From Acidobacteriaceae bacterium (GTDB lineage: Bacteria; Acidobacteriota; Terriglobia; Terriglobales; Acidobacteriaceae): DNA of 33,546 bases. Of the stretch, positions 4,726 through 33,546 are shown piece by piece. The notes below the pieces were generated by a model. That model was not told where the DNA came from. It saw only the letters and a list, made by a program, of their open reading frames with translations, and did not search any database. The stretch covers positions 18,612 to 52,157 of the forward strand of contig PLZC01000073.1 of NCBI GenBank assembly GCA_003151985.1, in the 5' to 3' direction. Made by a program: the position numbers and the translations under genes. Position 1 is the first letter of the stretch; every line of letters begins with the position of its first letter.

Positions 4726-7700
4726 TTGACGAAGATCGACCATAAACCATTCATTTCACGGATGTTAGTTCGATACAATCCAGCACTCTTCGCCGCCGCC
4801 GCGGTGCTGCTGGTGGCGGCGGCGGTGCTGGGGCCGGCAGTGGGCTGTCGCAACCGCCCTGCGCGCGTAGCAAATGCACAGCATCTTGATTTCAATCAGG
4901 ACGTGCAGCCGATTCTCGCCAGCCACTGCTTCAGTTGTCATGGCCCGGACCCTGAAATGCGCAAGGCCGGGCTGAGGCTTGATCTCGAAGAAGCGGCAAT
5001 GAAGAAGCGACCGGGGCATCCCGACGCGATTGTGCCCGGATATCCGGAGAAGAGCGAACTCGTCAAGCGCATTGAATCCAAAGATCCCCATCACCTCATG
5101 CCGCAGACGTCGCTCGGCGAAGCCAAGCCGATGAAGCCCGAAGAAATTGCCATCCTGAGGGAATGGGTGAAGGAGGGTGGCGCCTATCGGCCGCATTGGG
5201 CCTTCGAAAAGCCCAGCAAAGCGCCGCTCCCTGTTGCCGCCCAGCAGGATGGTTGGGCGAAGACGCCGATTGATGCGTTTATCCTTGCGCGATTGAAGAA
5301 GGAAGGCCTGCATCCATCGCCCGAGGCGGACAAGGAAACGTTGATTCGCCGAGTAACACTGGATCTCACGGGATTGCTGCCTGCTCCCGCGGAAGTAAGC
5401 GGATTCGTGAAAGATAACTCGCCCCAGGCCTATGAGCGTCTTGTCGATGGACTACTGGCACGACCAAGTTATGGCGAGGCGCGCGCGCGTTACTGGCTGG
5501 ATTACGCTCGCTACGCCGATACTTATGGCTTGCACTTCGACAACAGCCGCGACATCTGGCCTTATCGTGACTATCTGATTCGCGCCTTCAATAAAAACAA
5601 GCCGTTCGACCAATTCGCCATGGAGCAGATCGCCGGGGATCTTCTTCCCGCCAAAAATCTTGACCCACTTATTGCCAGCGGGTATGTGCGCCTCGGAGTA
5701 AGCAGCAACGAAGGCGGCACCATCCCGGAAGAACTGCGTGTGAACATTGCCCGGGAGCGAGCGGAGGCCTTCGGTGCCACGTTCATGGGTCTAACTGTAG
5801 GTTGCGCGGTCTGTCACGACCATAAGTACGATCCCACCACCCAGAAGGACTTCTACGCGCTCACCGCGTTCTTCAACAACATTGACGAGCGGCCTTTCAA
5901 TGGCGACAGGCCGGTTTGGGAGCCGGTAACTCGCATCCCCAAGGCGCAGAATCTGGAACCATACAACAGTGTGTTGGCAAAGCGATCTGACCTTGCCGCG
6001 CAACTGAACACTATGCGTTTGCACTCCCACACACTCGTCGAGCACTGGATCGAGTCGCGGCAGAATCCGGCAAAACCCGTCGTCGCCGACAAGCTGATCC
6101 TGCGTCTGCGCCTTGACGAGGGCGGAGGCGAAGTGCTCAAGAACAGCGCACCGAATGCTCAGCCGGCCAGTTTTCCCATCGGCAAGTCGAAGCCGCAATG
6201 GGGCGAGACAACCTGGTTGTGGCCAGACTTCCGCATGGATACCAGCTCCCGCGTGATGTTGGGACAAACCGGTGATTTTGAATCGAGTCAGGCATTTTCC
6301 TCGGGTGGGTGGTTCATGTTGCGTTCCGCCCCGCATGTTGCGGTGGACAACACCGGCACAATGATTTCCAAGATGGATGCGACCCAGCACAACCGCGGCT
6401 GGGATCTCTTCATCGACAATGGCATACTCAGCGTCGACCTTGTAAATCAAGCGCCAAAGGAACAGCCTCTTCCCAAAGCAGCGGCAAAGAAGAAACAGGC
6501 TCCCGTCAAAGACAAGTTCCGCTATCCAACGCCGGAAGACTTAACGGTCAAGGATCTTGCGCCCGACAAGGATGGAACAAAGAAGCAACCCCCCGAGAAG
6601 CCTGAGGCCAAGCCGAAGGAACCCCCGCAAGCCAAAGACACCACGCCGCTCGTTGCCATCAAGGTCTCCGCTGTCGATCCCGTGCCTGCGGACGGCCGCT
6701 GGAATCATGTGTTCTTTACCTACGACGGATCGGGCAAAGCCTCCGGAGTCAAGATCTATGTGAATGGCGCACCGGTCGCCACTCGCGTAGTTTTCGATGC
6801 ACTCGGACGGGCGTCGATACGGACCCAGGCCCCGATGCAGCTAGGTTGGAGATATCCCGACTCAACTCCCGCGCAGGACACTCGCTACCAGGACATTCGT
6901 CTCTATGCCCGTGCGCTCACCGCGGAAGAATCGAAGCGGCTGCCCGTTGAAGACTATGTCGCGGAACTAACTTCCAGACCCATCGCTCAATGGAATCAGG
7001 ACCAATGGCATGTGGTGAGCGAGTTCTATCTAAACGACGTGGATAACTCCTCCAGGGCGATCCAGAGTCAGATCAAGCAACTGGATGCACAATTGGAAAA
7101 GCTCTCCGCCGGAGGTGACTTGTCCATCGTGGCCTGGGAGAGGAATTCGATTGCGTATGCAAATGTCTTGACGCGCGGGGTGTATACGGCCCGCACAGAA
7201 AGGGTCGAGGCAAACACACCGCATTATCTCCCCCCATTACCGGCGGGCGAGCCCCACAACAGGCTGGCCCTCGCCAAGTGGACGGTCAGCGATCAGAATC
7301 CTTTGACGGCGCGAGTCACCATGAATCGCATGTGGAACGAGCTGTTTGGCGCCGGGCTGGTAGAGACAACAGAAGACTTCGGCATCATGGGCCAGCGGCC
7401 TTCGCATCCCGAATTGCTTGATTGGCTCGCCGTCGAATTCCGTGAGAGCGGATGGAACATCAAGCACATGTATAAGCTGATGGTGATGTCGACAGCTTAT
7501 AGGCAGAGTGCGAAGTCGACGCCCGAGCAACTCACCAAGGATCCTAAAAACCTCCTCCTGGCTCACGGCCCGCGCTTCCGCATGGATGCAGAGATGCTGC
7601 GGGATATCGCGCTGCAGTCCGGCGGGCTGCTGACAAATAAGATCGGCGGCCCCAGCGTGAGACCTTATCAGCCCGCGAACATATGGGAGCAGGTGAGCTA

Positions 7701-24283: not shown

Positions 24284-25450
24284 CTAACTTCGCGACAGTC
24301 CATTGAAATATTTCTCGATGTAACTGTCGGTCATGCCGGCAATGAAATCTGCAACGGTGCGTGCAAGCCCTTGGGTAGGAATCTGCGCCTGGTGGTCCGT
24401 CGGCAGCAGGTCGGGGTCGGCGATGAGGGCGGCAAACAATCCCTGAACCACCTCGGTGGCGTGCCTGTGAGCCTCTTCCATGCTGGCGGAATTGTAGAAG
24501 TTGGCGTAGAGAAAGCTCTTTGCCGCGGCTCTTTCGGCTTCCATCTGGGGGCTCAATGCAGCCAGTCGCATAGGCGCATTGCGAATTTCGGCCAGTCTGG
24601 TTGCGTCGATTTGAGTCACCCGTCTTTGCGTTTCCTCCATCAAATCGGTCACCAGCGCATTCAGAACACGCTTCAACGCCTCGTATGCAGTCAGTTTGGC
24701 CGCCGCCGCCGGATAATCACTGAGTACTTCGTCATGGAATCCACGAAACAAGGCCACGCCCTCTCGCAGTTGTCCCAACGTCAGGACACCGGAGTCCAGT
24801 CCGTCGTCAAGATCGGCGGTCAGGTAGGCAATCTCGTCAGCCAGATCGATCAGTTGCGCTTCAAGCGGTGGAAAACGATCGAGGAAGTATTCCGCCAATT
24901 CCGGGTGCGTGGCGGCGGAGTAGTCGTGGGAATGCTTCACGATCCCTTCGCGCACTCCCAGGGTCAAGTTGAGCCCGCGAAACCCCGCGTAGCGCTCCTC
25001 GAACCAGGCCACAATGCGCAGGGCATGCAAATTGTGGTCGAAACCCAGTCCATGGGCCTGGAGGGCCAGATCGAGAGCCTTCTCGCCGGCGTGGCCAAAT
25101 GGCGGGTGGCCAATATCGTGCGCCAGGGCCAGGGCCTCGGCCAACTCAGCGTTCAGCCCCAGTGCTGTGGCCAGCGTACGGGAGATTTGGGTCACCTCCA
25201 ATGTGTGAGTCAGGCGGCTGCGGAAATGGTCGCTGGGCGGATCGTCAGGTAGACGGGTAAATACCTGGGTCTTGCCGGCTAGCCTGCGAAATGCGCGAGC
25301 GTGCAGAATGCGGGCGCCGTCGCGGGCGAATGGTGTTCGGTAAGGATGGGGAGGTTCTGCTAGCGCGCGGCGAGTCAAGTCGCCATCCACAGTTCCGCGA
25401 ACGGCAATTCCCGGGGGCAAGGTAAAATGCGTCTTGGTATCAGAATCCAT
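24284..25450 (-). CDS. dgt: Deoxyguanosinetriphosphate triphosphohydrolase-like HD protein
   Basis: ARAFRRLAGKTQVFTRLPDDPPSDHFRSRLTHTLEVTQISRTLATALGLNAELAEALALAHDIGHPPFGHAGEKAL and DEIAYLTADLDDGL. Confidence 0.92.
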   Translation of the reverse strand: MDSDTKTHFTLPPGIAVRGTVDGDLTRRALAEPPHPYRTPFARDGARILHARAFRRLAGKTQVFTRLPDDPPSDHFRSRLTHTLEVTQISRTLATALGLNAELAEALALAHDIGHPPFGHAGEKALDLALQAHGLGFDHNLHALRIVAWFEERYAGFRGLNLTLGVREGIVKHSHDYSAATHPELAEYFLDRFPPLEAQLIDLADEIAYLTADLDDGLDSGVLTLGQLREGVALFRGFHDEVLSDYPAAAAKLTAYEALKRVLNALVTDLMEETQRRVTQIDATRLAEIRNAPMRLAALSPQMEAERAAAKSFLYANFYNSASMEEAHRHATEVVQGLFAALIADPDLLPTDHQAQIPTQGLARTVADFIAGMTDSYIEKYFNGLSRS

Positions 25451-25705
25451 ATTCGATGTGCTGTTCGTGAGTTCAGGTCTGGTTATACCGCAAACGGGGA
25501 GGTTGATGCTTAACGAAAGGCACCTGCGTGCCGGAAATCACCTTCCACAACGGCCTCAGGTGCTATAAAGTTCCTCATGTGGCAAGGATTGGACAACGCC
25601 TGTTTCGTAGGCGTACCATCCTGGCGAATTTTCAATGGCCTGGAGCAGGGTCCGAACCCTGTCAACGGCCTCAGCGGCAATTAACTTCTGTAAAGGGAGA
25701 CAAGC

Positions 25706-26689
25706 ATGAATGCGATGAAGAAGGCTGCGTTGGCCGTGCTGGCGATGGGAATCTTGTCAATTGTGGCGTGTGACCGGCACTCGAACAAAGAGGTCTTTTA
25801 CCTGGTTGCTACCAACGTAAACCTGCCCTACTGGCAGACGGCCGCGGCTGGCTTCAACAAGGCGGCTGCGCAATACAAAGTGACCGCCAAGGTGGTCGGG
25901 CCTGACACCTACGACGCGGCGGCCGAGAAGGATGCACTGCACCATGCAGTTGCCGCCAAGCCGGCCGGCATCCTCATTTCGGTTGCAGACAGCGAAGTTT
26001 TACAGCCGGAGATAGACGCGGCCATAGCCGCCGGCGTCCCAGTCATCACCATGGACTCGGATGCTGCCGGTAGCCGCAGGCTCTACTTCATCGGCACAAA
26101 CAACCTCGATGCTGGCCGTATGGGCGGCAGGCGGGTGATCGAGAAACTGGGTGGTGCTGGGAATGTGGTTTTCTTCACTCTCACCAGCCAGCCCAACACG
26201 GATGAGCGTCTCAAGGGATTCAAAGACGTCTTCGCCACACGGCCGAACATCAAGATTGTGGACGTCGTGGACATCAAGGGCGATGCTCGCAACGCATTCG
26301 ACAAAACCCAGGAGTTTTTGGCCTTGACCGGCCCCAAGAAAATCGATGCCTTTATCTGCCTTGAAGCTTCCTCGGGCAAGGTCGTTGCAGACGCCATAAA
26401 GCGCGCCGGTGGCGGCAGGGAACTGGTGGCTTGGGATGTGGACCAGGATACGCTGGATGGAATCAAATCCGGGGCCATTGACGCAACCATCGCGCAAAAG
26501 CCCTTCACAATGGGCTACATCGGTTTGAAGGCTTTGGACGAGATATTCCACGCCCCCCCCGCGCAACTAAACAAGGATTTCAGCAAGGACTCCTTTTCGA
26601 CCTTTCCGCTCTATGTGGACACAGGTACCTCATTGGTCGATAGCAGGAACGTTGACCTCTACCTGACAGCAGCCCAGGGTTCAAAGTAG
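25706..26689 (+). CDS. Sugar ABC transporter substrate-binding lipoprotein (RbsB-like)
   Basis: Lipobox-like IVACDR; VFYLVATNVNLPYWQTAAAGFNKAAAQYKVTAKVVGPDTYDAAAEKDALHHAVAAKPAGILISVAD...AGVPVITMDSDA; AAAGGGAGA upstream of ATG. Confidence 0.9.
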   Translation: MNAMKKAALAVLAMGILSIVACDRHSNKEVFYLVATNVNLPYWQTAAAGFNKAAAQYKVTAKVVGPDTYDAAAEKDALHHAVAAKPAGILISVADSEVLQPEIDAAIAAGVPVITMDSDAAGSRRLYFIGTNNLDAGRMGGRRVIEKLGGAGNVVFFTLTSQPNTDERLKGFKDVFATRPNIKIVDVVDIKGDARNAFDKTQEFLALTGPKKIDAFICLEASSGKVVADAIKRAGGGRELVAWDVDQDTLDGIKSGAIDATIAQKPFTMGYIGLKALDEIFHAPPAQLNKDFSKDSFSTFPLYVDTGTSLVDSRNVDLYLTAAQGSK

Positions 26690-26757
26690 GAGCAAGCGGA
26701 TTGTGTAGGTGTTCCCTCGGCGCGATAACCGCGATTTGGATATTTTGACTTCCCGTA

Positions 26758-26787
26758 AGCCCGCGTCTCTTTCGTGAGATGCGGGCT
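26758..26787. terminator. Hairpin between convergent genes, candidate terminator
   Basis: AGCCCGCGTCTC-TTTCGT-GAGATGCGGGCT, 12-bp stem with one G-U pair. Confidence 0.55.
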
Positions 26788-26821
26788 CAACTGGCTGCGG
26801 AAAAACTCCTTGTTTTGAAAG

Positions 26822-26841
26822 GGCATGGCTTTAGCCGTGCC
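26822..26841. repeat. Putative REP-like hairpin GGCATGGCTTTAGCCGTGCC
   Basis: GGCATGGCT-TT-AGCCGTGCC, one G-U pair. Related core GGGCTTTAGCCC at 1244-1255 and ACTTTAGCCGCCG at 26868-26880. Confidence 0.5.
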
Positions 26842-26900
26842 GTGGGAGGGGCTGAACATGGGTGCGACTTTAGCCGCCGAAGGATCGCCTTGGGAATGGC

Positions 26901-29099
26901 TTACTCCGATTTGGACGGCCCAGTGGCGCTTTCTTGTTTGGCCAGCTTCACGCGGGCGGTTTCCAGCTTGTGCTGAACCTTGGCCACGTCACCGGGTTCC
27001 GCGTCTGCTGCGGCCGACTTCGCATACTCCGACAACGATAGTTCCCATTGTGCCGCCGCCAGCCGGATGCGCCCGGTTTTCTCATAAAGGTCGCCCAGAT
27101 GGTCATGCACGGTAGGGTCGGTTTGGTCCCGTTCCACAGCACGGCGCAGGTTTTCCTCCGCCAATTCATACTCTCCCAGCTTGAAGTAGGCCCACCCGAG
27201 AGAATCGAGGTACGCGCCGTTCATTGGCTCCAGTTCCACGGCTTTGCGGATCAGCTTTAGAGCCTCGGTCAACCGCGTACCCTTGTCGGCCAGCATGTAA
27301 CCGAGGTAATTCAGGGTCATCGAGCTCGTGGGGTCCAATTCCAACGCCTGGCGGAACAACTGCTCGGCCGGCTCAAAATGCTTTTGCCGCTCAGCCAGTT
27401 CGCCCCTGAGGAAAAGCAGGTAGGTGCGGTCTTCCTTCTTCGTGGTCAGCGCTGCGGCCCTGTTGAAGGTGTCGTCTGCATCCTTCCAGCGATGTACTCG
27501 TACATACATCTGGCCCATTGCCAGCAGAATTTGGCGGTCCGCCGGGGAGTTATCCAGCAACCCCTTGACCAGTGTCAGGCCTTCTTCGGTCTTCCCCTGG
27601 TCCAGCAGCTCACTAGCAAGTATCAGCTTCAACTCGCGGTCCTTGGGATTGGCGTCGACCGCTCTTCGCGAGACCTCCACTGCCTTGTCGTATTGCTTGG
27701 CATCCCGATATGTGTCTACCTGGCCCTGGTATCCACGAACTGCCGACTCGCCGCCCATATCAATCAACTTCTGGTAGGTGGAGATGGCCTGTTCGGGTTT
27801 GTTCTGCTCGTGATACACAGCACCCAGCCGCTCCAGGAAGATGCCGCGGTTGTTCTTCTCCTCGGTAGTGTAGGCGCCGTTCGCATGGGAGGTCAGTTCG
27901 ACCATCTTCTCGTAAACCTGCGCCGCCTCTTCATAACGGCTTAGCACGTCCAGCAGAAGCCCCTCATTGTAGCCGGCTTCAAGCGAGTTGGGGTCCTTCT
28001 TGCGCGCCTTGCGAATGGTGGTCAGCGCATCCTCATACTTTTGCTGGCGCCGTTGAATCTCGCTGATATGCACGAGCGCGCCGGCATCGTCGGGGTCGGC
28101 TTCAGCCAACTCCTGGAATCGCTTGAGCGCGGCGTCTAGCTGGTTGTCGTTGAGCAAGGCCTGGGCCAAGGCGCCCACGGTCCGCGAGTCCCCAGGTTCC
28201 ATATCGGCGGCGCGCTGGTAGGCGGCAACCGCGTCCTTGGTTTGCTTCAACTGGTCGTAGGATGCGCCCAGGGCAAACTCCATCTTGGTCGTGCGGTCCG
28301 CCGCTGGAACCGCTTCTATTACCTTGACGCTATGGGCCAGATCGCCACTTTCAGCATAGAGACGCGCCAGGTTCAGTACTACTTCCTCCGAGTCGGGCTC
28401 GATGGCTTGCGCCGTTTTGAACTCTTCCTCAGCCTTTTTGGCATCGTGCTTGACTGTGTAAAGCTGGCCCAGGACCATGTGGTCCTCGACGCTCTTGGGC
28501 TGCAGCGCCAAAATCTTCTCGAACTCGGCTATCGCCTGGTCCAGAGCATTACCGGAGGGCGAGGCGGAAGAGACGGCGTTTTGCCCATCGCTAAGTTGCC
28601 TCAGGTAAATGCGGCCCAGCAGCTTGTGCGCATCCACGTCATCTGGGATGCTCTTCAGCAGCGCTCGCGCTGTGACTTCGGCATCGTGCGCGCGGCCCGT
28701 GCGGAAGTAAAGCTCCGCCAGCCCATTGTGCAACTGAGCAGAGCCGGGGTCGGCGTTCAGAGCCTTTTTATATTCCTCGACGGCGAAACTTGTGTATTCC
28801 GGACGGCCCGAAGTGACGGCCTCTTCCTCATAGATATTTGCCAGGGTCAGGTGATAGTAAGCTTGGGCGCGATCCGCCGCCGTGGCAGCGCTCTCCCCGC
28901 TCTTTGCTTGCGCGCCTGGACTGACCTTGGCAGGCGCGGGCTCAGCGGGCTTCGCTGCCGGCGCCACAACTCCCGGGATTGGACTATCTTGTTGCGCCGG
29001 CGCGTTTTGGGCGCCCCCGGGCAGAGTTGGCAGCAAAACGAGAGAAGCGACCGCAAGCGGTAGCCAAACGGGCAATAAACAAGTCTTTGGTTTCATCAT
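26901..29099 (-). CDS. Exported multi-TPR protein
   Basis: Many TPR units (e.g. YYHLTLANIYEEEAVTSG.., AIAEFEKILALQPKSVEDHMVLGQLY, SSMTLNYLGYMLADKGTRLTEALKLIRKAVELEPMNGAYLDSLGWAYFKLGEYELAEENLRRAVERDQTDPTVHDHLGDLYEKTG). Likely start at 29099 with signal peptide MMKPKTCLLPVWLPLAVASLVLLP. Confidence 0.85.
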   Translation of the reverse strand: MMKPKTCLLPVWLPLAVASLVLLPTLPGGAQNAPAQQDSPIPGVVAPAAKPAEPAPAKVSPGAQAKSGESAATAADRAQAYYHLTLANIYEEEAVTSGRPEYTSFAVEEYKKALNADPGSAQLHNGLAELYFRTGRAHDAEVTARALLKSIPDDVDAHKLLGRIYLRQLSDGQNAVSSASPSGNALDQAIAEFEKILALQPKSVEDHMVLGQLYTVKHDAKKAEEEFKTAQAIEPDSEEVVLNLARLYAESGDLAHSVKVIEAVPAADRTTKMEFALGASYDQLKQTKDAVAAYQRAADMEPGDSRTVGALAQALLNDNQLDAALKRFQELAEADPDDAGALVHISEIQRRQQKYEDALTTIRKARKKDPNSLEAGYNEGLLLDVLSRYEEAAQVYEKMVELTSHANGAYTTEEKNNRGIFLERLGAVYHEQNKPEQAISTYQKLIDMGGESAVRGYQGQVDTYRDAKQYDKAVEVSRRAVDANPKDRELKLILASELLDQGKTEEGLTLVKGLLDNSPADRQILLAMGQMYVRVHRWKDADDTFNRAAALTTKKEDRTYLLFLRGELAERQKHFEPAEQLFRQALELDPTSSMTLNYLGYMLADKGTRLTEALKLIRKAVELEPMNGAYLDSLGWAYFKLGEYELAEENLRRAVERDQTDPTVHDHLGDLYEKTGRIRLAAAQWELSLSEYAKSAAADAEPGDVAKVQHKLETARVKLAKQESATGPSKSE

Positions 29100-29602
29100 T
29101 CTAGGGGGTCCATGCCTCTTTTGCCCGGGCGGCCGGTAAAATATTCGATGCTGGATGTCGGACGCACTTGAGGCGCCCGGCAGGTGCAACTCCGCCTACT
29201 ATAAAGACGATTTTAACCGTGATTGGTCGCGATGTCTTTGCTCAAAGCAGGATTTCCCATCAGAGAACCATGAAATCCCGGGAAAAAGGCGACCACCACG
29301 GATCCGACCAAACGGCTGCGCAAAGCACTAACATAGCGTTATTCCTGCAAAAGGCGGGATTTTCTACTCAATGACGACTAAAATCTGAGGGTTTTGTGTG
29401 CCGATCAGTGAACAGGGAAAATTTGCAAGCTATTCATTCTTTGCTACTTATTGGTATGAAAGGATGGAAAATGTGGAGAAAATGTAAATGCAAAGAGTAG
29501 GCGGAGAATTCAGGTGGGAGTTTGTTAGGTCGAAAGGTGTTTTGCAACCGACCACTCCCTGTACCCGTACGCAGAAATAATCCCTCAGGCGGAGCGTTTT
29601 AT

Positions 29603-29670
29603 TGGTGCCCGGAGGGGGACTTGAACCCCCACGATCTTGCGATCTGCGGATTTTAAGTCCGCTGCGTCTA
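29603..29670 (-). pseudogene. Truncated tRNA-Leu(TAA): 3' part with CCA, lacking 5' acceptor strand and most of the D-arm; probable att remnant
   Basis: - strand TAGACGCAGCGGACTTAAAATCCGCAGATCGCAAGATCGTGGGGGTTCAAGTCCCCCTCCGGGCACCA: anticodon stem GCGGA/TCCGC with TAA, long variable arm, T-arm GGGGGTTCAAGTCCCCC, 3' acceptor TCCGGGC-A-CCA. The expected 5' GCCCGGA is absent; the sequence upstream of TAGACGC is unrelated and AT-rich (TATTATATATGAGCAGCTTGAGAA). Confidence 0.88.
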
Positions 29671-29718
29671 TTCTCAAGCTGCTCATATATAATAGGTTAC
29701 ATTTTCAAAACTGTGAAG

Positions 29719-29740
29719 TGTGTAAGTTTATGTGTAAATT
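29719..29740. repeat. Short direct repeats TGTGTAAGTT / TGTGTAAATT just inside the att remnant
   Basis: 29719-29728 and 29731-29740, 9/10 identity, 12-bp period. Confidence 0.6.
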
Positions 29741-30008
29741 ATGATCCTTCCCTAACAAGTTCAATGAGCGCGTTGGGCTGTTGGCGTCAACCCAAAATCA
29801 TGACCAGGAAGATTCGGGGACACTGGCCGACATCGGTCCTTATCCGCTTTCAATCGCGCTCGTCGAACATCTTTATGCGGTCAAATCGATGAAGGGGAAA
29901 AGCCTGACCTGACGGCGCTAATATTCGGTCGTAAGTCGCAGATTCAAAGCGTCATATCTTTCACGATCTGCGGCTCGCCGAGAAGCGTCCAACGACGAAA
30001 CATGACTC

Positions 30009-30968
30009 CTAGGAACCCGAACTCTGCCTGAAGCAGTTCAAGAAAGCGGGTAGGTCCTCCTTGATGGTCTCAAGCTGGTGCTGGGATTTCGCGAATACCT
30101 GCCGGTAGGAATGGGACGCCATCCGGAGGTTCATGATCTCGGCATACCTTGCGTCAACTGTCGTGTCCGGGGGAACGTTCTGGCTAGACGGCTCCAGAAC
30201 GAGGAGAGCCTTCGTAGGTGACAGAGGATAGTAGACGTCGAAATTGGCAGGCGGCTCGTTGTTGGTCGGATTCGCGGCTAGGTTGATCAGCGGCTGGTCA
30301 GCGGTCACAAACGGGACCTTGCTCGGGTTGTCGATCAGGATGAATTTGTGGAGATGGCGCTCGACGTACAAACTGAACCCGACGTTTACCGCCACCATAT
30401 GGACGAGAGGGTTGGCGATTCTCATGTAAATAGCGAAGCGCTCGGCAGACATCGCTTGCTCGCTTTGCTTGATGTGGTTTGTACGGGCATATTGAACCGA
30501 AAGGCTGCGATAAAACAGTGCCGCCTGTTGGTCGTTCTGCAGGAACGAGGTATCACCTGTGCGAAGCGCGTCGAGATGTTTCTGGAAATCGTCTTCGATG
30601 GCGGTATGGAGGTCCTCGTTAGTTTCGCGGATCGCGCGTTCAAGAGCCAGTTCTCTTTCGGGTGTAGCATCGCCGGTTTCTCGTAGGCGTTGCCTTGCCT
30701 CATGCGGAAGCATCATCGAGTACAACAGAAGCTCGTGGCTCTGGCGTAATCCCTCTGGAGATTTGGCGATCACCACCCGGCGAATGAATTCGGCATCTTC
30801 ATGGGTGATTTCCTGAAGACGATAAAAGTAATTCTGCGCTGCGACGCCCTGAAGATTGGGACGGAATATCTCGTTTTCTTGCAGGCAGTAGATCAGCTTC
30901 TTTTGTGCCCAAGCCTGAAGGTAAAAGCGCGGAACATAATGATGGAGTTTCTTCCCGATGGCGGGCAT
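30009..30968 (-). CDS. DUF4238-like protein
   Basis: N-terminal LHHYVPRFYLQAWAQKKLIYCLQENEIF...VAAQNYFYRL and central FVTADQPLINL match the pattern I associate with DUF4238. Confidence 0.75.
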   Translation of the reverse strand: MPAIGKKLHHYVPRFYLQAWAQKKLIYCLQENEIFRPNLQGVAAQNYFYRLQEITHEDAEFIRRVVIAKSPEGLRQSHELLLYSMMLPHEARQRLRETGDATPERELALERAIRETNEDLHTAIEDDFQKHLDALRTGDTSFLQNDQQAALFYRSLSVQYARTNHIKQSEQAMSAERFAIYMRIANPLVHMVAVNVGFSLYVERHLHKFILIDNPSKVPFVTADQPLINLAANPTNNEPPANFDVYYPLSPTKALLVLEPSSQNVPPDTTVDARYAEIMNLRMASHSYRQVFAKSQHQLETIKEDLPAFLNCFRQSSGS

Positions 30969-31128
30969 GAAGGCATTTTACGGTATGCGGGGAGTAGTCA
31001 AGTGGCGATCTCCCGCCGATCCTGAAGCTGATGTCATGCAGCGATATTCTTGGTCCTATGGATCTCAGCGTTTTCTTCACAGTTTACGCAATCGTCCAGC
31101 TCCGCTCCCCCTAGCCTATATTTGGAAC

Positions 31129-31881
31129 ATGGCCAACAACTGCATCTTCTGCGGCAACCCCGCTGGAAGCCGTGAGCATATCTGGCCGAAGTGGATTCTC
31201 GAGAGGAAGAATTTCGGGCCCTTCCGTCTTAAGCGCGCGGGCGCACCAGATCTTATCCTTAACACCGAACTGACAACAAAGGCCGTCTGCCACGGCTGCA
31301 ACACTGGCTGGATGAGCAAGCTTGAGGCGGCACTTAAGCCCATTCTTGAGCCGATGTTTGAAGGCAAGAGTGTCAGCTTGGATATCTATCAACAACAGCT
31401 AATTGCGCTGTGGATGGTGAAGATGGCTTTCGTGTGGGATTCAACCAAAGGCCGCAACACAGACAACGCATTTTTTCGGAACGCTGACGGCATCGCGCTT
31501 GTGCAACGCATCATGCCGCCCTTCACTGCGGTGTGGCTTGGTCACATCGGCAGAGACTACCGGTCGGCGGACGGGCATGACATCACTCTTGATGAGCCGC
31601 CGAAGCGCGTCGGCGGCGGCAACGTCGTGACCATCGTCAATGAGCAATTCGTCGCCCAGATCGTGAGCCTTCGCCCCGACCAGATGCCCACGGGACCGAC
31701 GGCTATTCAGCTCGACTTTCCTCCAGGCAATTGGAACAACACATTGATTCGTGTTTGGCCGCAGGATAATGCCAATCCGATCGAATGGCCGCCACCGGCC
31801 GCACTCACCATTCTCGATTACCTTCTGCTTAGAGATCGATGGCGCACAGGCGACGAGACAGATCATATTATCCACTTGTGA
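31129..31881 (+). CDS. HNH-like / zinc-finger nuclease-like protein
   Basis: MANNCIFCGNPAGSREHIWPKWILERK...AVCHGCNTGWMSKLEAALKPIL: CxxC..REHIWP..CxxCNxGW pattern resembling HNH proteins. ORF extends to 30958 but ATG at 31129 immediately precedes the motif. Confidence 0.65.
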   Translation: MANNCIFCGNPAGSREHIWPKWILERKNFGPFRLKRAGAPDLILNTELTTKAVCHGCNTGWMSKLEAALKPILEPMFEGKSVSLDIYQQQLIALWMVKMAFVWDSTKGRNTDNAFFRNADGIALVQRIMPPFTAVWLGHIGRDYRSADGHDITLDEPPKRVGGGNVVTIVNEQFVAQIVSLRPDQMPTGPTAIQLDFPPGNWNNTLIRVWPQDNANPIEWPPPAALTILDYLLLRDRWRTGDETDHIIHL

Positions 31882-32009
31882 TTGTTCTTTCCGTCACTAA
31901 ACCGCATGCCCCAAATAGATCCGATCACTGCAGGATCAACCCGCAGCAGGTGTGCCCTAAACAACATGGTTCGATTCTACCCTTTCGCTTGCGCACTTAT
32001 GATTACGGT

Positions 32010-32252
32010 CTATACGGGCGGTTCCGGGTGCTTCTTGCAGATGATGGAAAACGTCCCTTCCTCCTCCTCAAGCTCTAATTGGCAATAATGCTCCTTGACG
32101 TGCAACTGCATCGAGGTCAAAAGGTCGATACTGATGCGGGTTCGTGCGGTCATTTCGCGGCTTCCAGCAGTTGGTGCGGCGGAAGCATTGTGGACAGTTT
32201 CGAAAAGTGCGCAAGCACTTCCTTTCGAGGGCTGCTGCGTTTCAGATCTCAA
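32010..32252 (-). CDS. Possible small protein overlapping the end of the HEPN-like gene
   Basis: 80-aa ORF from TTG 32252 overlapping the HEPN-like stop at 32242; alternative internal ATG start (MTARTRISIDLL...). No recognised family. Confidence 0.25.
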   Translation of the reverse strand: MRSETQQPSKGSACALFETVHNASAAPTAGSREMTARTRISIDLLTSMQLHVKEHYCQLELEEEEGTFSIICKKHPEPPV

Positions 32253-33192
32253 CAGGCTCGACTGGAAACTCAGGATCGTCTGTTTTTGGTGCCGGCGGAG
32301 CTGGGAGCTTTTTCACCTGGTCGTCGATCGCACCAGCGAAAGCGAGGACCGCTTTGTTAAGTGCCAGGATCTTTGGCAGATCCCATGAGCCGTCCTTACC
32401 GCCGCTAGTCTTGCCGTTGCGATGTACGATGTCGTGCCGATCACGGATACCGTTCGCAATCGTTGGGGGTGTTTCAGGGAATTTGATATCGAAGGCGCGC
32501 TTAAACATCATGCCCGACTCTTTAAGCATGTGCCAGTTGTGCGCGAGCACGTACGATCGAACCTCCGCGTCGATTTTCTTGAAGCGCTCGAAGATGTCGC
32601 AAAGCTTAATTTCCGTGTTCCGGAAATGCGGTGTTTTGAATACGAAATCCTCAAGGTACTGATCGCTTGCGGAGAGTGTTTTCATGAACGAATCTCCCAA
32701 GAATGTTTCCAAGGCTGTGATGACGTTGGCGAATAGCAATTTGTGAAGAGTTTTTTGCTTCGCCGCAGACGTCTTGATTTTTGCGGCACTTTCGATTTCG
32801 TTCATGCTCCCTAGGAGCGTCAGCAACGGATCGGTACCGCTGTCGATCAAGTCGGCAAGGTAGTCGTCGTCGAAGTCCTCATCGCTGGGCTTACCGGACC
32901 ACTCGTAGTTAATATCTCTCAGTTCCGAGACAAGTTCTTCGATGGCGTCATCGGATGCTATGCCACCGAACTCATTTTCAATGACATCTCTCGCGTCGTA
33001 AGGTCCGCCCCAAATCCACTGGAAACCGCCTTCGGATGAATCGTAAGGAAGCTCATCCGGCGGGTCGTATCGGCCGTCGAACCAGTGCCGCATTAGAGCA
33101 AGCTGGTCGTCCTGAGTTAGCTTCTTGACCTTCGAACCGGCGATGTGCTCGCTGGTCCTCGATAGAAAATAGCTTCGGCGTTTGCGGGGCAT
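32242..33192 (-). CDS. HEPN-domain-like protein (RiboL-PSP/MAE_28990-type HEPN suspected)
   Basis: ANVITALETFLGDSFMKTL ... NGIRDRHDIVHRNGKTSGGKDG contains an R-x4-H motif (RHDIVH) at 32422-32439 typical of HEPN ribonucleases; N-terminal GGPYDARDVIENEFGGI segment. Confidence 0.7.
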   Translation of the reverse strand: MPRKRRSYFLSRTSEHIAGSKVKKLTQDDQLALMRHWFDGRYDPPDELPYDSSEGGFQWIWGGPYDARDVIENEFGGIASDDAIEELVSELRDINYEWSGKPSDEDFDDDYLADLIDSGTDPLLTLLGSMNEIESAAKIKTSAAKQKTLHKLLFANVITALETFLGDSFMKTLSASDQYLEDFVFKTPHFRNTEIKLCDIFERFKKIDAEVRSYVLAHNWHMLKESGMMFKRAFDIKFPETPPTIANGIRDRHDIVHRNGKTSGGKDGSWDLPKILALNKAVLAFAGAIDDQVKKLPAPPAPKTDDPEFPVEPVEI

Positions 33193-33467
33193 GGATAAAT
33201 TGTAAGACGCCCGTGTCGACTATGACACAGAACTGTCGGCATACAAGTCGGCCTTTTCGCCGTCCGTCGGCGGGTGGCCCAGATCTCGGAGATGCAAGCG
33301 TGCCTAAAATGGGGGTGCCCGAGGTCACTCACTCTTGGGACTTGGGAAAGCACAGAGGCCCGCGAGCCAATTACTCCCGAAAAACGCATATGTAGCCGGG
33401 AGGAATTCTGGCTTCACGCATAATCGCCAAATCACTCATTGAGAAATCGATGAGTACCGGTATGTCT

Positions 33468-33546
33468 TAGTGCTGTATCAGAAGCGCCCTCCCAAAGCGC
33501 GTGCAAACTCGAACTGTTGCGCGCGGGCGCTCCAGATACAGCACTA
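33468..33546. repeat. 22-bp inverted repeat (2 mismatches) ending exactly at the window end
   Basis: TAGTGCTGTATCAGAAGCGCCC (33468-33489) versus GGGCGCTCCAGATACAGCACTA (33525-33546). Confidence 0.85.

Follow-up and report, generated by a model that had tools for sequence, protein, structure and literature searches.

The tRNA-Leu(TAA) fragment at 29603..29669 of the window is very probably the attR of an element belonging to a family that splits a host leucine tRNA gene, does not rebuild it, and usually carries a whole leucine tRNA gene of its own. The window is the whole stretch of DNA analysed here (33,546 nt; contig C22:18612-52157 of MAG G000, which has 468 contigs and is ~73% complete), and its right edge, 33546, is also the end of the contig. 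Judged from sequence, the fragment would be the chromosomal side of the attR of a split host tRNA-Leu(TAA). The split-tRNA-Leu family is widespread and apparently undescribed; no prior description of such elements was found in the literature (open-access text only). The features of the window are as follows.

24284..29189, block of backbone genes dgt - PBP4 - TPR flanking the CCA end of the fragment, syntenic in relatives
29603..29669, minus strand, 3' piece of tRNA-Leu(TAA), nt 21-87, CCA included, 97% identical to intact congeneric genes
29648..29660, minus strand, core GGACTTAAAATCC in the anticodon stem-loop, which complete relatives have at both ends
29661..33546, right portion of the integrated element, truncated by the contig end
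29719..29737, minus strand, arm-type direct repeat pair TTACACA-N5-TTACACA, matched nowhere else in the window
30009..30968, minus strand, DUF4238 protein, element cargo (PF14022, E 2.5e-22)
30958..31881, plus strand, 307-aa protein without a family match, CxxC and H residues seen by eye
32242..33192, minus strand, HEPN-like protein, element cargo (PF18735 below its cut-off, E 7e-4)

The tRNA fragment and its right-end signature

The first-pass annotation of this DNA described a truncated tRNA-Leu(TAA) preserved as a 68-nt 3' piece. The fragment is real, with 97% identity over tRNA nt 21-87 to the intact tRNA-Leu(TAA) genes of congeneric genomes, and its length is 67 nt, the T at 29670 lying outside the match. 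It is not a working tRNA: ARAGORN called no tRNA in the window, Rfam reported none in the window at the gathering score, and a permissive scan reached 24.5 bits against a cut-off of 29. No second copy and no intact tRNA-Leu(TAA) was found elsewhere in the assembly of 468 contigs (~73% complete). All stems of the 3' half are intact, and the variable arm carries a paired change (GATC/GATC vs GACC/GGTC). A group I intron was considered as the direct cause of the fragment and rejected, since the fragment contains no intron and its first base, nt 21, precedes the intron site.

The same annotation read the fragment as an attachment-site scar with an element to its right, and this agrees with the right-end signature, an arm-repeat pair 78 bp from the core and a boundary in the D-loop. 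The pair at 29719..29737, presumed to be integrase arm sites, starts at this distance on the element side; its pattern, TTACACA-N5-TTACACA, matched once in the window and not at all in 100 shuffles. Six further intact right ends of family elements have TTRCACA-N5-TTRCACA, starting 78-79 bp from the core (78 bp in G018, G034, G012, G038 and L148, and 79 bp in G008), and the pair was missing from five classical island ends in the same tRNA gene. The fetched loci, duplicates included, held 53 pairs with 4- or 5-base spacers; 48 of these lie no more than 200 bp from the core, and the remaining five were also close to a family integrase. The core-plus-arm pattern matched eight of 81 congeneric genomes, window included, always in a tRNA-Leu fragment, and its reversed control matched none of the 81.

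The 3' piece at family right ends starts in the D-arm or D-loop, at nt 15-21, a range that the window fits with a start at nt 21; the other intact right ends start at nt 15-17. In G059 (L108), a diverged fragment that starts at nt 19 lacks the arm pair. The D-loop boundary alone is thus not diagnostic, and it is the arm pair and its distance that carry the family assignment. The family integrase, the 5' half and the replacement tRNA of the window element were absent from the assembly (~73% complete), where only a distant recombinase, on C191, was found, so the membership of the window in the family is read from its right end.

Anatomy, spread and integrase of the split-tRNA-Leu family

A search of 60 congeneric genomes with the intact gene sorted the tRNA sequences into four classes: intact genes, 3' fragments from nt 28-31, 3' fragments from nt 15-21, and isolated 5' halves to nt 41-42. 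The 3' fragments from nt 28-31 are of the kind that classical islands leave in this genus. One such island, in the complete congeneric genome G002 (C1:3415836-3477483; L016, L044), occupies 61.5 kb in tRNA-Leu(TAA) and has an intact tRNA next to a 377-aa tyrosine integrase, with a displaced 57-nt 3' fragment on the same strand at a distance of 61.5 kb. The 3' fragments from nt 15-21 pair with the isolated 5' halves; in G008, 50 kb separate nt 1-42 (C27:179553) from nt 15-87 (C27:229616).

Elements of this second kind in the genus integrate in the anticodon stem-loop of tRNA-Leu(TAA) or tRNA-Leu(CAA). One end has nt 1-42 of the tRNA, the opposite end about nt 15-87. When the flanks are joined at the core, a perfect tRNA-Leu with the right anticodon results in each of eight distinct complete elements, which measure about 11 to 50 kb (G008 (AB60), G018, G034, Edaphobacter lichenicola M8UP30 and M8US30, TAA 166, Bradyrhizobium sp. 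CCGUVB4N and NORP106), and no tRNA was called at either half alone in any of the eight. The core GGACTTAAAATCC is the presumed site of strand exchange. This anatomy shows that the elements integrate in the anticodon stem-loop, that the host gene is lost and that a matching whole tRNA is supplied.

The left end of family elements consists of the 5' tRNA half, ~120-160 bp, the integrase gene and then, in TAA elements, the intron-bearing replacement tRNA. An integrase of 426-456 aa starts just inside the 5' half in G008, G018 and G034, and a TrwB coupling protein and a TrwC relaxase are encoded toward the other end of the same three elements; with both proteins inside the element, these relatives are predicted to be mobilizable or conjugative. 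Neither a relaxase nor a coupling protein is visible in the 3.9 kb right of the window fragment.

A scan of GTDB genomes gave 386 relatives of the integrase. The best 80 of these 386 come mostly from Acidobacteria and Alphaproteobacteria, with some from Gammaproteobacteria and Planctomycetes, and a 5' tRNA-Leu half lies upstream in 68 of the 80 loci (35 TAA, 33 CAA). The family integrase was found in no phage records and in 14 plasmid records, mostly partial.

By Pfam matches across members, invariant residues and fold, the family integrase is a diverged tyrosine recombinase. PF00589 was matched by 19 of 26 members and a SAM-like domain by all 26, and residues R247, R361 and Y393 are invariant, with a catalytic role suggested by the motif. 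A sequence search against solved structures returned nothing; comparison of the predicted fold, a model of moderate quality (pLDDT 76.5, pTM 0.48), gave XerA, Cre and lambda Int. Its divergence puts the integrase out of reach of NCBIfam models and, in some members, of the Pfam integrase domain too.

Several related loci differ in layout. The more distant integrase relatives L169 and L173 lie beside intact tRNA-Arg(ACG) and tRNA-Met genes and carry no replacement tRNA; they may represent conventional integration within the same recombinase family. L174 (9720-10010) and L177 have arm-repeat pairs on both sides of a GACTCAAAA core and no tRNA half, and look like either an unintegrated attP or integration elsewhere. 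The 50-kb AB60 (G008) element (L095/L096) encodes SNF2/helicase, N6/N4 methylase and DUF499 proteins in a row that resembles a defence system, together with a second, larger recombinase and an RHS-repeat protein.

Replacement tRNAs, their introns and known systems

Family elements usually carry a whole tRNA-Leu gene 3' of the integrase, and its anticodon is that of the broken gene in 46 of 46 loci at which both could be read (of the 80 integrase loci). An intron is present in 28 of 28 TAA replacements, in which it is 204-257 nt long, vs 1 of 18 CAA replacements. Counted by locus, 29 of 30 testable TAA loci are intron-bearing, the exception being L130; this count includes L146, which ARAGORN missed, and leaves out five loci where the contig breaks off no more than 331 bp from the integrase. 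In TAA replacements the intron lies inside the anticodon loop, after the first anticodon base. The RF00028 group I intron model matched in all 11 loci tested (E 2e-13 to 6.5e-6), above the gathering score in three of them; in the replacement tRNAs the RF00028 match lies between the exons, the 5' exon ends in U and the intron ends in G. Some intron-bearing copies are labelled Phe or Ser by ARAGORN, but because their exons join as CTT/AAAATCC these calls are taken as register errors and the tRNAs are read as Leu(UAA).

Fifteen CAA loci have no replacement beside the integrase. The replacement is at the right end in G018, G034 and G038, and in M8UP30 and TAA 166 the 1.5 kb next to the right end held none. 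A tRNA-Leu(UAA) can read UUG by wobble, so CAA loci that lack a replacement would be tolerable in principle. UUA has no reader other than tRNA-Leu(UAA), so a host with a TAA element would depend on that element. The leucine tRNAs found in AB60 have the anticodons TAG, GAG, CAG, CAA (the replacement) and UAA (intron-bearing), and the only tRNA-Leu(UAA) among them is the intron-bearing copy of the element. A lone 5' half of tRNA-Leu(CAA) lies at C2:88437 in AB60 (G008), 44 kb from a diverged tRNA-Leu(CAA) at C2:132612, and two of its leucine tRNAs may have been supplied by mobile elements.

From these features a mechanism can be proposed for the window element. The tyrosine recombinase would recombine in the anticodon stem-loop of the host tRNA-Leu(TAA), with strand exchange probably in the 7-nt anticodon loop, as for other anticodon-site integrases (PMC8371274). 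The host gene would be split into a 5' piece, nt 1-42, at the unseen left end and the 3' piece, nt 21-87, seen here, and would not be rebuilt. The unseen left end would be of the TAA type with an intron-bearing tRNA, from which the intron would splice itself out to give a tRNA reading UUA codons. Within the gene, the intron would break the integrase core, and the replacement would therefore not itself be a target.

We give an even chance to the group I intron being a shield, such that the host depends on an element-borne replacement immune to integration; this reading is favoured because the intron lies inside the presumed overlap loop and because most TAA replacements keep GGACTT identical to the target. 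It is also quite possible, at somewhat short of an even chance, that across the family the intron is a hitch-hiker and that replacements escape through a differing anticodon stem, as in CAA elements. There, 17 of 18 replacements have no intron, and each of the 17 departs from the target in the 5' stem or the loop of the core, four of them at just one base. Escape by a differing stem sits poorly with the TAA loci, however, since with GGACTT kept in most of them many replacements would match the core if they had no intron, and the intron is present in 28 of 28.

Islands and ICEs that target tRNA genes (the Islander class) are similar to the split-tRNA-Leu elements in their tyrosine recombinase, an attB at an anticodon-loop sub-site, a tRNA fragment at the island end, and a relaxase and coupling protein (PMC4383910). 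The accepted rule for that class is that island sequence restores the disrupted gene (PMC4383910), whereas in the present family a tRNA is formed at neither end, the replacement is a complete gene of its own, and the host leucine tRNA is swapped for that of the element. Island finders that seek an intact tRNA plus a fragment would miss split-tRNA elements. Integrating vectors of mycobacteria likewise disrupt tRNA genes, a loss that must be tolerated or covered, but they rely on further host copies (PMC13104609) while the present family brings its own tRNA.

Group I introns are known from tRNA-Leu(UAA) of cyanobacteria and plastids and from a few alpha- and betaproteobacterial tRNAs (PMC4033280). 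The cyanobacterial and plastid intron of tRNA-Leu(UAA) is, as here, a small group I intron in the anticodon loop (PMC4033280); the intron-bearing tRNA described here differs in lying inside a mobile element, beside an integrase, and in substituting for a broken host gene. The family offers a possible reason for the scattered occurrence of group I introns in bacterial tRNA-Leu(UAA). In archaea, the tRNA-Thr of Caldiarchaeum is the model for intron gain and tRNA splitting via mobile-element integration (PMC3293823). Both cases tie tRNA disruption and introns to integration, and in both the introns may protect attB, but the model concerns archaeal introns, one population and a gene rebuilt through attP (PMC3293823), whereas the present family has a bacterial, presumably self-splicing intron, supplies the replacement as a separate gene and comprises many elements in different phyla. 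The split-tRNA-Leu family allows the long-standing suggestion that introns guard tRNA genes against integration (archaea, PMC3293823) to be tested directly.

Alternative readings of the window, its flanks and its cargo

The CCA end of the fragment was said in the first-pass annotation to face backbone genes, and TPR-PBP4-dgt is indeed syntenic in relatives. In those relatives, however, tRNA-Leu(TAA) adjoins a lytic transglycosylase (SLT) gene, not TPR. No tRNA was found at the G000 homologue of this usual site, the SLT locus on C359. The position beside TPR reflects either movement of the tRNA gene in this lineage or a contig mis-join left of 29603. It is unlikely that the fragment and element were mis-joined to the TPR backbone during assembly, which would make the neighbourhood false and leave the attR itself sound. 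The 468 contigs and 73% completeness of the MAG, and the different neighbour in relatives, speak for such an artefact. The fragment, core and arm pair are nevertheless contiguous and in register with other right ends, so that a mis-join would have to fall left of 29603, and the 3' flank of tRNA-Leu(TAA) varies between relatives anyway.

A classical island, in which attP carried the tRNA 3' end, the unseen end regained a complete tRNA-Leu(TAA) and the window has just the displaced 3' fragment, is very unlikely here. Such islands do occur in the same tRNA gene of the genus (G002), and known islands often have their attachment site in the anticodon loop (PMC4383910), but all five classical ends start at nt 28-31 and have no arm pair, whereas the window starts at nt 21 and has one. 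The expectation of the first-pass annotation that a reconstituted tRNA lies on the other side is accordingly dropped, as the window signature is that of a family leaving two non-functional halves. Least probable, and only barely credible, is an old remnant, either a decayed tRNA gene or the scar left by a rearrangement, in both cases without an element. The absence of the upstream half would fit this and, as the annotation had said, no integrase is visible in the 3.9 kb right of the fragment; yet the stems of the 3' half are all intact, the variable-arm change is a paired one, and an arm pair at 78 bp would have no reason to be there. The fragment is thus best read as the attR of a split-tRNA-Leu element.

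The three proteins of the visible element (DUF4238, 307-aa and HEPN-like) are possible defence cargo. The CxxC and H residues of the 307-aa protein, seen by eye, suggest that it may be HNH-like. Defence-system models gave no match to the window cargo, and the fetched loci held no homologues of it except a weak HEPN match in L150. This cargo (30009-33192) adjoins attR and is without close relatives in the other elements fetched.

The C359 homologue of the usual tRNA-Leu(TAA) neighbourhood (G000:C359:4200-5060; L043) has the SLT gene and a small ORF but no tRNA, and two undetermined bases (nn) at 4775 lie there between inverted repeats. Between TPR and the fragment, 29347-29482 matches several other places in its own genome at 72-89% and is, by these matches, classed as a dispersed intergenic repeat.
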